From NCBI RefSeq assembly GCF_947039875.1, contig NZ_CAMRAN010000003.1:1-64000 (forward strand): a DNA stretch of 64,000 nucleotides. Direction: 5' to 3'. The notes under the pieces are model-generated. The model had not been told where the DNA came from and did no database searches. It saw nothing but the letters and a program-made list of their open reading frames with translations. This document shows positions 50,653 to 59,022 of this stretch, in pieces (position 1 is the stretch's first letter; each line of letters starts with the position of its first letter). Source of the DNA: an uncultured Photobacterium sp. Its GTDB lineage: Bacteria > Pseudomonadota > Gammaproteobacteria > Enterobacterales > Vibrionaceae. A program made the translations under genes and the position numbers.

Positions 50653-53283
50653 TCAACCTGTATTACGCATACCAGTTGCAATACCTGCAATGGTGACCAT
50701 TAATGCTTCTTCAAGCTCTGTTGGTAACTCTTCCTGCTGACGAGTACGGTAAAGTAATTCAGCTTGCAGCATATTAAGTGGTTTGACATAAATATTACGC
50801 AGGCGAATAGATTCTGCACCCCATGGGTCTTGCTGCATCAAATGGTCATTATTTTCAACGGTTAAGACTGTTTTAATGTCTTGCTGTAATTGTGAGCGTA
50901 ATTGTTTACCTAGTGGCCATAATGCTTTATCGGTTAAGCGTTGATCATAGTATTCAGCAATACCAAGGTTAGTTTTACTGTATACCATTTCTAGCATACC
51001 TAACCGGGTTGAGAAAAACGGCCATTCGCGACACATTTCTTCTAGTTGTGCGGTATCACCATTATCAATTGAATGTTGAATCGCTTCACCCGCGCCTAAC
51101 CATGCTGGTAATAAGAGGCGGTTCTGACTCCAAGCAAAAATCCATGGAATAGCACGTAAACTCTCAACGCCACCATTAGGATTACGTTTTGCAGGGCGAG
51201 AGCCCAGCGGTAACTTACCCAGTTCAGATTCTGGCGTTGCAGCGCGGAAATAAGGAATAAACTCCGGCGTGTTACGGACTATATTACGGTACGCGTCACA
51301 TGAAACATGAGAAAGTTGGTCCATGATCTGACGCCATTCTTGTTTCGGTGCTGGTGGCGGCAGTAAGTTAGCTTCTAACGTTGCGCTCGCGTAAAGGCTG
51401 AGGCTGTTAATTGCCACTTCAGGTAAACCGAGCTTAAAGCGAATCATCTCACCTTGTTCGGTGACGCGTAAACCACCTTTTAGGCTGCGTGGTGGTTGAG
51501 ATAATAATGCCGCATGTGCTGGTGCGCCGCCACGACCAATACTACCGCCACGGCCGTGGAATAAGGTGATTTCAACTTCTGCTTTTTCACAGACATCAAC
51601 CAGTTTTTCCATCGCACTGTATTGTGCCCAACCCGCAGACATGACCCCAGCATCTTTGGCTGAATCAGAATAGCCAATCATTACCATTTGATGGTTTTGA
51701 ATAAAGCCACGGTACCAGTCAATGTTAAGCAGTTGCTCAATAACATCAGCACCATTATTTAAGTCTTCAAGTGTTTCAAATAATGGACACACATCCATGC
51801 GGAACGGGCAACCTGCTTCTTGCAGTAATAAGTGGACGGCTAATACATCAGAGGCAGTACGTGCCATTGAGATCACATAAGCACCTAATGCTTCACGTGG
51901 TTGTTCTGCAATTGCTTTACAGGTTTCGAGTACTTCTTGAACGTCAGCTGATGGTTCCCACTTTCGTGGTAGTAATGGTCGTTTAGACGATAATTCACGG
52001 ACTAAGAATGCGATCTTATCTTGTTCACACCATTGACTGTAATCACCTAAACCAAGATGACGCGTTAGCTCTGAAATAACATTTTCGTGGCGAGTACTTT
52101 CTTGACGAATATCCAGTTTAACCAGATGCACACCAAAACATTTGATACGACGTAATGAATCAAGCAGTAAGCCGTCAGCAATGATCGCCATACCACATTG
52201 ATGTAATGACTGGTAACACGCAAACAGTGGATCCCATAGCTCAGCAACATCATTAATAATGTGCTTAGAAAGGGGAGCGATACCGTTGATTTGAGCTTCT
52301 AAACTATCACGTGTAATAATTAATTTAGTACGTAATTGTTTTAAAATTGCGCGGTAAGGTTCATGTGCTTCACCTGCGAGCTCTCGCACCTCAGCATTAC
52401 ATTGAATCATTGATAATTCATTGATCAATTCTTGCACGTCACCAAGATAAAGTTCAGCGGCTTTCCAACGAGAAAGACGTAAAACTTCATGGGTAACATT
52501 AGAGGTCACAAATGGGTTGCCATCGCGATCTCCGCCCATCCATGATGAGAAGGTAACCGGTGCAGCATCTAGCGGTAACTTCTGATCTAAATGTTGTTGT
52601 AGTTTTTCATCAAATAGACGTAAAAATTCTGGCACTGCTTGCCACAATGAATTTTCAACCACGGCATAGCCCCATTTAGCTTCGTCAATTGGGGTTGGGC
52701 GTTGCTGGCGAATAACATCTGAGTACCACGCTTGGGCAATCAGTTGCTCTAATCGTTGTTCAACACGAGCACGTTCAGCGGTTGATAATTCGCTTAATTC
52801 TAATTGCGATAAACATTTATTAATCTGTACCAATTTATGGATCATGGTACGACGTGCAATTTCTGTTGGGTGCGCTGTGAGCACTAAATTAATATTTAAT
52901 TCATTTATTGCAGTTAAAGAATCAGCAGGATTAACCTCATTCTCAACTAATTTAGTAAATAACTCATCAAGTGCATCTGGGCTGCATAATGTTGTTTCAC
53001 ATTGACGTGAAATTGTATGGTATTGCTCTGCAATATTGGTGAGATTAAGGAATTGACTAAAAGCTCGAGCTACAGGAAGTAATTGATCATCGGGTAGATT
53101 TTGTAATTCAGCAATCAGTTTCTCGCTATCATCTTGATTACCTGTACCTGCTGATTTAGAAAGTTTGCGGATAGTTTCTACTTTTTCTAATAGTTCATCA
53201 CCGCAGGCTGTTTTGATCGTATTACCCAGTAAATGGCCAAGCATACTGACATTACTTGTTAACGCGCTGTATTTCTCGTTCAT
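50653..53283 (-). CDS. ppc: Phosphoenolpyruvate carboxylase
   Basis: Ppc carboxylates phosphoenolpyruvate to oxaloacetate, refilling the TCA cycle. The product of about 876 residues contains [13 protein letters not shown] (catalytic His), [35 protein letters not shown], the glycine loop [15 protein letters not shown], and ends in MRNTG, the conserved C-terminus. The frame opens at 53334, but [16 protein letters not shown] at 53283 matches E. coli MNEQYSALRSNVSMLG. Divergent from the arg operon; in E. coli and V. cholerae argE sits between them, here it does not. Confidence 0.97.
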
Positions 53284-53591
53284 ATCGTATCCATTCCGTA
53301 ATTTTGTTACATCCAATTTAACCCTATACCCCACAATCTAGCCGTGAAGTTAGTGACAGGTCAACAGAGATTGTATTTATCGCTAATAAAAACGAGTGAT
53401 ATTGATTTTGGTCATAATTTTGATTGAATATTGTAATTTTGTTTCATTCCTGCCTACGTTCGTCCACATTTTTGTTCCTTATTAAGGAGGTAGGGCAAAA
53501 AAGTGCCATTAAATAAATTATTTCTGTTATGGTTTGATGTCGTAAAAGTTAATTAAAAGATAATAAAATATATTTTTCTATTGTTATGCTA

Positions 53592-53641
53592 TTGACAGTG
53601 TGCAACTTAACCAGTAAACATATTAATTCAAATTTATGAAT
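53592..53641 (+). promoter_or_regulatory. Candidate arg operon promoter with ARG-box-like half-sites
   Basis: A consensus -35 TTGACA (53592-53597) is followed after 17 bases by TAAACA as a weak -10. The palindrome ATTCA-AATTTA-TGAAT (53626-53641) overlaps the expected start site. Its half-sites and six-base spacing fit the inner halves of two adjacent ArgR boxes, but the outer halves are poor. Confidence 0.5.
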
Positions 53642-53665
53642 AAATGGCGTTGGCTGTTTATTTAT

Positions 53666-53700
53666 CCTTGAGCAAAGGAACGCTCAGGGTTTATTGTTCT
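53666..53700 (+). terminator. Terminator-like hairpin in the argC leader
   Basis: CCTTGAGC (53666-53673) pairs with GCTCAGGG (53682-53689) through one wobble pair, with an eight-base loop and the tail TTTATTGTT. It lies between the candidate promoter and the leader ORF, so it could attenuate the arg transcript. The tail is imperfect. Confidence 0.55.
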
Positions 53701-53718
53701 ATGCAGGAAGTTACTATC

Positions 53719-53766
53719 ATGAATCAAATCTATACATCTGCCTTCATCCCCCTTCGACGACGCTAA
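53719..53766 (+). CDS. Putative arginine leader peptide MNQIYTSAFIPLRRR
   Basis: This 15-codon ORF is too short for routine gene calling. AGGAAG lies eight bases before the ATG, a better binding site than that of argC. The last three codons are CGA CGA CGC, all arginine, followed directly by TAA; CGA is a slowly read codon. It lies 147 bases upstream of argC in the same direction. Tandem codons for the end product before the first biosynthetic gene are the hallmark of leader peptides in attenuation (known for his, trp, leu, ilv, phe). For arginine I know of no such bacterial leader, so the function is inferred. A later frame at ATG 53701 reads into the same ORF and is less likely. Confidence 0.55.
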   Translation: MNQIYTSAFIPLRRR

Positions 53767-53913
53767 GTCTTTTGCCTTAGGTGCTTTTACGTGCCTTTTC
53801 TGTGCTGTTTACAGCGCTCCTCCGTTAGCCGTTATGACAATCATCACTACTTATGCCATAGCTCCAATTATTTGATTACGGCTCGATAACACTACAATGA
53901 TATGGAATTCGCA

Positions 53914-54927
53914 ATGTTAAACACGGTTATTATTGGCGCCAGTGGCTATACCGGCGCAGAACTGGCAAAAATAGTGAGTCGTCATCCGCAGTTAATGCTT
54001 TGCAGTTTGTATGTTTCAGCCACCAGTGTTGATGCAGGAAAGCCATTGAGCGCGCTGCATGGCCAATTACACGGTATGGTTGATCTACCGTTGCAACCGC
54101 TAACAGATATTAAAGCAGCGGCAACAAACATTGATATTGTGTTATTAGCAACAGCCCATGAAGTAAGCCATGATATTGCGGCTGAATGTCTAAATATGGG
54201 GTGTCAGGTGTTTGACTTGTCAGGTGCTTTTAGAGTGAAAGCGGATGGTTTTTATGAACAATATTATGGTTTTGAGCACCAATATGAGGCATTGCTAGAC
54301 AGTGCTGTTTATGGGTTAGCAGAATGGAATCACGATCAAATTCGCCAAGCGCAGTTGATTGCTGTTCCTGGGTGCTATCCTACCGCATCTCAATTAGCGT
54401 TAAAACCATTGCTCGTTGCAGGTCTGCTTGATTGCGATCAATGGCCGGTGATTAATGCCGTCAGTGGTGTTTCAGGTGCGGGTCGTAAAGCAAGCATGAC
54501 CAATAGTTTTTGTGAGGTGAGTTTACAAGCATATGGTTTGTTTACTCATCGTCATCAACCTGAAATTGCCCATCATCTTAATTGCGATATTATTTTTACG
54601 CCTCATCTCGGGAATTTTAAACGCGGAATTTTAGCCACTATTACCGCGAAGCTAGCGCCTGGCGTAACTGCTGAAGACGTGACTGTAGCAATGGAGTCTG
54701 CTTATCTAAATACGACGGATCAACATGCGGTACGGCTACTTAACAATAATACCGCTAAGCTGGATGATGTTGTTGGTAGCTGTTTTTGTGATATCGGCTG
54801 GCAGGTTCAAGGTGAACATATTATTTTAACCGCCGCGATTGATAATTTATTGAAAGGGGCTTCATCACAAGCAGTTCAATGCATAAATATTCGTAATGGT
54901 TTTCCTCAATTAACCGCATTGGTGTAG
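53914..54927 (+). CDS. argC: N-acetyl-gamma-glutamyl-phosphate reductase
   Basis: ArgC reduces N-acetylglutamyl phosphate to the semialdehyde, the third step of arginine synthesis. The 337-residue product begins [21 protein letters not shown], has the catalytic cysteine in [13 protein letters not shown], and the HRHQPEI and GNFKRGI motifs. ATG 53914 is chosen over 53902 because it matches E. coli MLNTLIVGASGYAGAEL and has GGA at good spacing. First gene of argCBGH. Confidence 0.96.
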
Positions 54928-57144: not shown

Positions 57145-59022
57145 ATGGCATTATGGGGTGGGCGGTTTAGTCAGGCAGCTGACATCAGATTTAAACAATT
57201 TAATGATTCGTTGCGTTTTGACTATCGACTCGCAGAGCAAGATATTGTCGGTTCAATAGCTTGGTCAAAAGCCCTGCGCCAAGTGAACGTACTTACTGAA
57301 ACAGAGCAACAACAGCTTGAATTGGCACTAAATGAACTTAAATTAGCGGTAATGGAAGATCCTGAACAAATTCTCGCTTCCGATGCTGAAGATATTCACA
57401 GTTGGGTTGAACAGCAGTTGATTGCTAAAGTGGGGGATTTGGGTAAAAAACTACACACGGGTCGTTCACGTAATGATCAGGTGGCGACGGATCTTAAACT
57501 GTGGTGCCGTCAGCAAGGTCAGCAATTATTGTTGATGTTAGATAAATTACAGCAACAGTTAGTTACCGTCGCCCGCCAACATCAAGCAACGGTATTACCC
57601 GGATATACCCATTTGCAACGAGCGCAGCCCGTCACTTTTGCCCATTGGTGTTTAGCGTATGTTGAAATGCTAGAGCGTGATCATTCACGCTTAGATGATG
57701 CTATGACGCGACTTGATACCTGCCCGTTAGGCTCTGGCGCACTGGCAGGAACGGCGTATCCGATAGATCGTGAAGTGTTAGCCCATAACCTTGGTTTTCA
57801 GCGCGCAACCCGTAATAGTCTTGATTCGGTGTCTGATCGTGATCACGTGATGGAACTATTATCTACCGCATCAATTTCAATGTTGCATTTATCACGAATG
57901 GCGGAAGATTTAATTTTCTATAATTCTGGCGAATCTAATTTCATTGAACTTGATGATGCGGTGACCTCAGGTTCATCATTGATGCCGCAAAAGAAAAACC
58001 CTGATGCTCTGGAGCTTATTCGTGGCAAGTGTGGCCGAGTGTACGGTGCTATGACAGCGATGATGATGACGGTTAAAGCATTACCGCTAGCTTACAATAA
58101 GGACATGCAAGAAGACAAAGAAGGGTTATTTGATGCGTTAGATAGCTGGCATGATTGTATGGAAATGGCGGCATTATGTTTTGAAGGGATCAAGATTAAT
58201 CAAGATCGTACTTTAGAAGCGGCGATGCAAGGCTATTCAAATGCGACCGAATTAGCCGATTATTTAGTGGCGAAAGGGATCCCTTTTCGAGAAGCTCATC
58301 ATATTGTTGGAGTGGCGGTGGTGGCTGCGATTGCCAAAGGCTGTGCGTTAGAAGAACTCTCTCTTGAGGAGATGAAACAATTTTCGACGGTGATTGAAAG
58401 TGATGTCTATCCGATGTTGACCATTGAATCATGTTTAGATAAACGTTGCGCTCTTGGTGGCGTAGCGCCAAACCAAGTTGATTATGCTATTGGTCAAGCA
58501 GAGAAGCGGCTTGATAAGCGTTATTCGCCTAATGTTAAAGTACGAGGTGCACGACTCACCGATCTTGATGCTATTGAAGGCATGGTGGTGTATTGGGCGG
58601 GGCTAGGTGAGAATTTACCGCGTAATCGTAATGAGTTAGTGCGCGATATTGGCTCGTTTGCAGTGGCTGAAAACCATGGTGTAGTAACCGGGTGTGCATC
58701 ATTGTATGTCTATGATTCTGGACTGGCTGAGATACGATCTTTAGGGGTTGAAGCGGGCTGGCAACAACAAGGTCAAGGAAAAGCGATTGTTGAACATTTG
58801 CTTGATAAAGCCACTCAAATGGCGATAAAAAAAGTGTTTGTGTTAACTCGAGTGCCAGAGTTCTTTATGAAACGTGGTTTTACGCCAACCTCAAAAGCCT
58901 TATTACCAGAGAAAGTAATGAAAGACTGTGATCGTTGTCCACGCCAACATGCGTGTGATGAGGTCGCTCTAGAGGTCTGGCTTGATCAAGCTCAGCATAT
59001 TCCAACGGTGAATGTTGCTTAG
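57145..59022 (+). CDS. argH: Argininosuccinate lyase fused to an N-acetyltransferase (ArgH-ArgA fusion)
   Basis: The 625-residue protein is a bifunctional enzyme. Residues 1 to about 460 are argininosuccinate lyase, with the signature [12 protein letters not shown] at 276-287 (catalytic Ser near 277) and TGRSRNDQ at 105-112. Residues 466-625 are a GNAT acetyltransferase with the acetyl-CoA loop QQQGQGKA at 540-547 and three cysteines in [11 protein letters not shown] near the end. Such ArgH(A) fusions, described in Moritella and vibrios, supply N-acetylglutamate synthase as well as the last step of arginine synthesis. Last gene of the operon. Confidence 0.95.

Follow-up and report, generated by a model that had tools for sequence, protein, structure and literature searches.

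Arginine operons are textbook targets of the ArgR repressor, and among amino-acid regulons arginine is, to our knowledge, the one usually cited for repression, by ArgR, without attenuation. Translated leaders can act through their product, as in SpeFL and TnaC, which stall ribosomes at the stop codon by nascent-peptide arrest. The fungal arginine attenuator peptide is, like the leader described here, an arginine-responsive upstream ORF that precedes an arginine-pathway gene, but it belongs to eukaryotes and works by a peptide-sequence-dependent arrest at high arginine. The amino-acid attenuators of trp, his, leu, phe, thr and ilv likewise place a short ORF with end-product codons before a biosynthetic operon and read ribosome position through alternative RNA folds, with strong bias in the control codons (excerpts of PMC1183508). 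The leader that we describe before argC in Photobacterium differs from these in that its end product is arginine and its control codons come at or close to the end of the ORF.

According to excerpts of PMC6386406, a pair of adjacent arginine codons in Salmonella orf34-speF is read out through ribosome position. Orf34/SpeFL of Salmonella and E. coli thus resembles the argC leader both in its consecutive upstream ORF arginine codons and in the selection of folds by a ribosome on those codons or on the stop. In the same excerpts speF is a polyamine gene, the ORF has 34 codons with a conserved HIRRT core and the outputs are Rho and RNase G; the argC leader peptide, in contrast, is unconserved and the downstream gene makes arginine. 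The DUF2618 core (HIRRT.., as given there) was not found by eye in the argC leader peptides, and the gene that follows them is argC, not an ornithine decarboxylase. In PMC13009471, rbfL, which precedes rbf in Staphylococcus aureus, also senses Arg-tRNA supply with leader-peptide arginine codons; it differs in its AGA/AGG codons, in occluding the next ribosome-binding site, in serving a biofilm regulator and in turning the gene off when arginine is low. The carA leader peptide of Pseudomonas aeruginosa (PMC4997734, in part) precedes a gene common to arginine and pyrimidine synthesis, but attenuation there is tied to pyrimidines. By analogy, the argC leader may work like the classical amino-acid attenuators, with sensing like that of orf34-speF and rbfL. 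Among the matches listed in our literature search, which lay mostly outside subscription journals, no title or abstract opening describes an arginine leader before argC, and an older report is possible. The main text of a premature-terminator survey (PMC2965389) does not contain the word arginine, and that of an RNA-seq paper on P. profundum (PMC3505737) has 0 mentions of argC, arginine or attenuat.

The window, a stretch of 64,000 nucleotides from an uncultured Photobacterium sp., carries argC-argB-argG-argH on the forward strand. The first gene, argC (53914..54927, +), was the query of our homologue searches and has P. piscicola as its closest named relative (94% identity); argB, argG and argH were assigned by reading translations. 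A longer argC frame starts at 53902, and the conserved ATG at 53914, which begins MLNTVII, is preferred because the extension has a stop after two codons in loci L003 and L007. The argH frame (57145-59022, 625 codons) exceeds the usual argininosuccinate lyase and presumably resembles the argH-acetyltransferase fusion of other marine Gammaproteobacteria. At Rfam gathering thresholds no family is found at the argC leader, the single match in the window being an L31 ribosomal-protein leader (RF03157, 45014-45065, +). Upstream of the leader stands a promoter-like TTGACA and TAAACA pair separated by 17 nt (53592..53620, +), and the transcript is predicted to start shortly downstream of it. TTGAC occurs at most 220 nt before the leader ATG in 60/61 leader loci and is followed after 16-20 nt by TAAA in 58/61; in the genus the count is 50/51, the sole locus without TTGAC-TAAA being L066, whose contig ends too early. 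A consensus scan listed no forward sigma-70-type site at 53350-53960, and the TTGACA/TAAACA pair is missing from it because the second hexamer is without its final T. The repressor is also present: Arg_repressor_C scores above cut-off in 52/52 genus genomes, so that two layers of control are likely, and trp is likewise under two layers. A half-site-like TTCA..TGAAT near 53627-53643 was read by eye against the ARG box consensus.

The leader ORF (53719..53766, +) extends from an ATG at 53719 to a TAA at 53764-53766 and encodes the 15-codon product MNQIYTSAFIPLRRR, in which codons 13-15 are CGA CGA CGC (53755..53763, +). A Shine-Dalgarno AGGAAG (53705..53710, +) is separated by eight bases from the ATG, and 147 nt separate the leader stop from the argC ATG at 53914 on the same strand. 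All of these features had been named in the original prediction, and all were found again on re-reading the sequence. Given the inferred transcript start, the ORF lies on the operon strand between promoter and biosynthetic operon, as in known attenuators. The pattern CGACGACGNTRA has 6 occurrences in the 3.96-Mb genome, against 25 for the same pattern read backwards as a control, and the leader copy is the only one of the 6 outside open frames of at least 100 codons.

Within Photobacterium, 52 genomes were searched and 51 contain argC, the exception being G048 (74% complete), which gave no argC match. In 51/51 of these argC is preceded by an ATG-started ORF ending in RRR-stop, a counterpart of the window leader that dinucleotide shuffles of the same upstream regions produce at a rate of 0.0018-0.0025 (about 0.2%). 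Leader lengths differ by whole codons (15 codons in 43, 14 in 7 and 16 in 1), and the endings before the stop are CGA CGA CGC in 50 genomes and CGA CGA CGT in 1 (CGACGACGC in 50/51, CGACGACGT in 1/51). By eye, an AGG(A)-like Shine-Dalgarno occupies the equivalent place in most genus sequences, and none is seen in the group L021/L024/L026/L028/L030/L054/L056. The distance from leader stop to argC ranges from tens of nucleotides to about 150 nt. The leader is also found on 16/16 named Photobacterium contigs, which overlap the genus genomes, and is absent from the sole other named contig, Siccibacter. Conservation of the frame, the ribosome-binding site and the Arg triplet in relatives, on which the original prediction had staked itself, is therefore strongly borne out by the 51/51 genus genomes and by further genera and families. 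The remainder of the peptide behaves differently. Among the 43 leaders of 15 codons, positions 13-15 are RRR in 43/43, and codons 5-10 each show 6-10 different amino acids. As in amino-acid attenuators, the run of end-product codons is kept while the rest of the peptide varies, both in the genus and in the other genera and families.

Outside Photobacterium, genera, families and loci are given by our own g, f and L labels. Seven further genera of the Vibrionaceae have an Arg-ending leader before argC: g4 (MNQTNLLLQDTLRRRQV, 1/1 genome), g5 (MHHQAIITIHSLRRC, 1/1, only two Arg), g8 (MNQAKHIALYSLRRRRI, 1/1), g11 (MNQLKCISHLSLRR, 1/1, only two Arg), g7 (2/2), g9 (2/2) and g3 (2/3). No such leader precedes argC in g12 (0/8 under the ATG rule), g10 (0/3) or g2 (0/1); two g12 loci, L111 and L114, have an RR-ending ORF if TTG starts are allowed and were not accepted. 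The listed g12 and g10 genomes have a similar promoter motif but no leader ORF, which implies that the device is dispensable. Genera g6 and g13 (weak or fragmentary argC) and many g3, g9, g10 and g12 genomes were left out. The divergent neighbour of argC in the window is a ppc-like gene (50653-53334), and in g12 an argE-like start is seen by eye in its place; leader presence does not strictly track the divergent gene, as g4 and g8 seem argE-like yet are leader-bearing.

Leaders of this kind also occur in other families. In f17 the ending is RRR-stop in 8/9 genomes and RQR-stop in the ninth. In f6 a leader is found in 27/30 examined, with RRR in 11 and RR or RRR placed at the stop or one codon before it; L206, L214 and L218, without an Arg leader under the rule used, are possible secondary losses. 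Leaders are present in f13 (4/4) and in genus g47 of f25 (3/3), with two to four extra codons after the Arg run. A rule restricted to the last five codons recovers 3/4 and 2/3 of these, because further codons follow the Arg run, and a last-seven rule recovers all. Genus g37 of f25 has no Arg leader (0/3). In further families the two-Arg rule matches 2 of 43 loci, near the 3% shuffle rate, and these ORFs were excluded as members, as was a two-Arg ORF in f11 (L131, 1/2; near a 10% shuffle rate); in other orders the rule matches 0/29 loci examined. Genomes in which argC was read number 30/73 for f6, 69/100 for the others at order level and 29/86 for the others at class level. Duplicate loci (L184/L203, L185/L219, L122/L111, L125/L112 and repeated f17 loci) were counted once.

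The codon as well as the residue is conserved. Of the 147 Arg codons within the final seven leader positions outside the genus 133 are CGA, compared with 30/187 Arg codons in eight window genes. A model in excerpts of PMC3783181 has CGA read very slowly by anticodon ACG in E. coli, and excerpts of PMC1183508 describe selective charging of Arg isoacceptors together with codon bias in leaders. This preference bears on whether the leader could act through its peptide, with an RRR-ending product that stalls at the stop after binding a ligand, free arginine or other, inside the ribosome tunnel. The stop-adjacent RRR is indeed the most conserved part of the peptide and MNQA is frequent at the leader start in the genus, but residues 5-10 vary freely, and MNQA is explained by the long-range helix P1 described below, with synonymous changes accompanying changes in the post-stop strand. 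The Arg run is moreover followed by 0 to 4 codons depending on the family (RRR, RRRQV, RRRSHL, RRRISA and RRCSHL before the stop), and it is the codon CGA, not the residue alone, that is kept, although in f17 a hairpin may force CGA. We consider peptide arrest improbable. Sensing by Arg codons is favoured over it since residues 5-10 are unconserved, the distance from Arg run to stop varies and the Arg codons of f17 form a terminator arm; on the same three grounds the nascent-peptide alternative offered by the original prediction loses ground, and its codon-based reading gains support from the sequence conservation of frame, ribosome-binding site and Arg triplet.

Beyond the leader stop the RNA is predicted to form short hairpins. 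P2 in the window is AGGTGC-TTTTAC-GTGCCT followed by TTTCT (53779..53796, +; arms 53779-53784 and 53791-53796) and is terminator-like. This pairing had been put forward in the original prediction and is conserved: by rule, a 5-bp P2 stem is present in 51/51 genus genomes in seven arm combinations, compared with 12.4% of letter shuffles. Across the genus P2 takes the form GGTGC with GCACC and variants, and overlaps the 3' strand of P1. The other pairing proposed there, CTAAG with CTTAG, is not conserved, being kept, in aligned rows read by eye, in 4/10 genomes of the window clade, or 5 with G-U. P3 (GTGCTG-TTTA-CAGCGC, 53802..53817, +) has a perfect stem of at least 5 pairs in 39/51 genus genomes, with letter shuffles at 8.6%. 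Upstream of the leader ORF lies another terminator-like hairpin with a T-rich tail (CCTTGAGC..GCTCAGGG TTTATTGTT, 53666..53689, +), whose pairs are kept in most of the 10 window-clade genomes with one two-sided change; judged from the sequence, it could be a second control point ahead of leader translation.

In Photobacterium outside the window clade, P1 pairs ACCA(A/G)GCGA in codons 2-5 with TCGC(T/C)TGGT a few nucleotides past the stop. The control codons thus lie between the strands of P1 and not within strand 1, unlike those of the classical attenuators. An alignment of 41 sequences (A1; 38 from the genus and one each from g4, g8 and g11, leaving out the identical L014, L017 and L025, the ten window-clade sequences and g3, g5, g7 and g9) has 98.1% of P1 cells paired and two-sided changes in 4/9 pairs. 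On four of five measures P1 exceeds every one of the 500 shuffles; on the number of further pair types it does not, 484/500 being as high. On the argC tree one A-U/G-C pair undergoes three switches, and its two sides change together in 40/40 genomes counted, with a G-U at this position in L099. On one strand the changing base sits at the synonymous third position of a Gln codon, so that selection is on RNA pairing rather than on the peptide. On well-supported branches the covariation comes to 2 independent pairs only, with few events and a sign test p of 0.5. A Watson-Crick helix of at least 8 pairs is found in 39/41 genomes in the rest of the genus and in 0.85% of letter shuffles. No P1-like helix was found in the leaders of g3, g7 and g9, where the longest reaches 4-5 bp. 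A covariance model of the P1 structure (R1) run on 394 order genomes recovered its own genome and L120 (E 4.6e-4) only, and the latter was rejected since it is not before argC and its surroundings read as a lon-type protease gene; as R1 was built on one variant, the other families were scanned anchored on argC. The pattern CGACGACGCTRA..GGTG, searched in 329 family genomes, proved too narrow, no match outside the genus coinciding with argC positions.

Folding with an assumed ribosome footprint, which reaches 18 nt upstream and 12 nt downstream of the first A-site base, gave probabilities averaged over 41 genomes. P1 and P2 stand at 0.93 and 0.21 without a ribosome, 0.95 and 0.21 with a ribosome on the first Arg codon, 0.12 and 0.76 with one on the stop codon, and 0 and 0.69 with one on the start codon. 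L101, L105 and L106 were not scored, and g7, g3 and most of the window clade are without P1. In this model, the Photobacterium leader thus has a geometry in which ribosomes on the Arg codons and on the stop codon can be distinguished. Two points speak against a P1 switch: P1 folds even when no ribosome is present, and a following ribosome held at the AUG would mask its 5' strand.

P1 is missing in 10/10 window-clade genomes, a single change on a fully supported branch, and this loss is why it is invisible from the window sequence alone. The clade retains the ORF, the Arg codons and P2 despite the loss, and a P1 switch cannot run as stated in the window genome, where the proposed mechanism is at its weakest. 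RNAalifold on the 10 window-clade sequences gave no clear long-range replacement for P1, yielding P2, P3, the upstream hairpin and two long-range helices without two-sided changes. One long-range helix of this clade, at about 53826-53886, pairs AGCCGTTAT-type with ATTACGGCT-type sequence (alignment columns 190-198 with 239-247), is kept in 8-10/10 genomes with no two-sided change and ends ~30 nt before argC. That the leader is kept here without P1 argues for a read-out based on Rho or on P2.

The form that termination might take differs between clades. Two terminator-like sites were found, compared with 0.3 in shuffles, and P2 in the window is weakly terminator-like; the doubt already voiced in the original prediction, that the window holds no clean terminator/antiterminator pair, still stands. 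An intrinsic terminator with dG -6 or better and a U-tract is present in 4/10 window-clade genomes versus 27% of shuffles, and in 6/41 in the rest of the genus versus 7%. An intrinsic terminator common to all Photobacterium was therefore rejected, the scores being not clearly over shuffles. No strong terminator is seen in the genus, unlike in the classical attenuators. The post-stop region is 28% C and 18% G, compared with 16% C and 21% G in the 90 nt before the leader, and such a C-rich, G-poor composition is as one would like for Rho loading. In f17, in further difference from the classical systems, the control codons are themselves a terminator arm. In 8/9 genomes a hairpin that precedes a T-run such as CTTTTCT or GCTTTTTT has the Arg codons and stop as its 5' arm, which begins 12-14 nt ahead of where the stop codon ends; dG is -6.8 to -20.7, and 4% of shuffles reach dG -6; an alignment of four f17 loci (A3) was kept out of the counts. 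L192 of this family, with CGA CAA CGA (RQR-stop) and a weaker stem (-6.8) than its relatives, amounts to a natural control-codon mutant. In L207-L211 of f6 a GGGC..GCCC hairpin with a T-rich run lies between leader and argC and looks, from its sequence, like a second terminator type in that family; f6 overall is modestly above shuffles, with 5/27 at -6 or better versus 6%.

The scarcity of clear terminators in Photobacterium raises the possibility that mRNA decay or argC translation is controlled instead of transcription, ribosome position setting the leader fold and hence mRNA stability in the manner proposed for Salmonella orf34-speF. That precedent combines arginine codons with a hairpin past the stop, and the conserved window-clade helix, which has no two-sided changes, ends close enough to argC to be compatible with it. 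Against this stand the strong intrinsic terminators that f17 builds on the same codons and the distance, from tens of nucleotides up to about 150 nt, that separates leader stop and argC in the genus, and we regard control at these later steps as unlikely, if somewhat less so than peptide arrest. A structured non-coding or protein-binding RNA element in which the ORF is incidental would accord with the conservation of P1, P2 and P3 as RNA. Such an element is very hard to reconcile with length differences confined to whole codons, a retained ATG and Arg codons that are kept even where the RNA structure of a family looks different, and it is the least probable of these alternatives.

Our results instead favour, with good confidence, ribosome-mediated attenuation of arginine biosynthesis through a translated leader that senses charged Arg-tRNA, acting atop ArgR repression. 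The conserved ORF, its Arg codons and P2, the covariation of P1 and the f17 terminators are all present in the genomes themselves, and on this comparative evidence sensing by Arg codons is well supported. We infer the steps that connect them, namely translation and stalling, P1 as the ON state, P2 as the OFF state and the termination step. The leader peptide would be translated, its product hardly mattering in itself, and the terminal CGA CGA CGC codons would be the sensor for charged Arg-tRNA. When arginine is plentiful, the leading ribosome would reach the stop and be released, P2 (and P3) would fold and transcription would tend to stop within the leader; under a shortage of Arg-tRNA, the ribosome would stall on the CGA codons and transcription would proceed into argC. 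In most Photobacterium, a ribosome on the Arg codons would leave codons 2-5 and the post-stop strand free to form P1 around it, to the exclusion of P2, and a ribosome on the stop codon, covering the post-stop strand over its 5' half, would favour P2. The assignment of P1 to expression and P2 to termination follows from the expectation that starvation switches an arginine operon on. Termination in Photobacterium may be Rho-dependent or may use a weak terminator at P2, and in the window clade, without P1, control would have to operate via P2, Rho or ribosome position alone. In f17, a ribosome on the Arg codons would cover the terminator 5' arm and should prevent the terminator from forming.

More tentatively, and with rather less than even confidence, attenuation of argC may be an old device of this gammaproteobacterial order in which the sensor, tandem CGA at or near the leader end, has been kept while the output structure was rebuilt repeatedly, as a terminator arm made of the Arg codons in f17 and as a helix clamping the stalled ribosome between codons 2-5 and post-stop RNA in Photobacterium and its nearest genera. 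If argC is preceded by a codon-sensing leader in many species of several families, arginine would join the pathways under attenuation. The argC leaders represent natural replicates for the question of why attenuators choose particular codons, here CGA, and a case in which the sensor is conserved while the RNA read-out differs between clades. In Photobacterium and several related groups, the leader probably lets the cell gauge its arginine through ribosome stalling.
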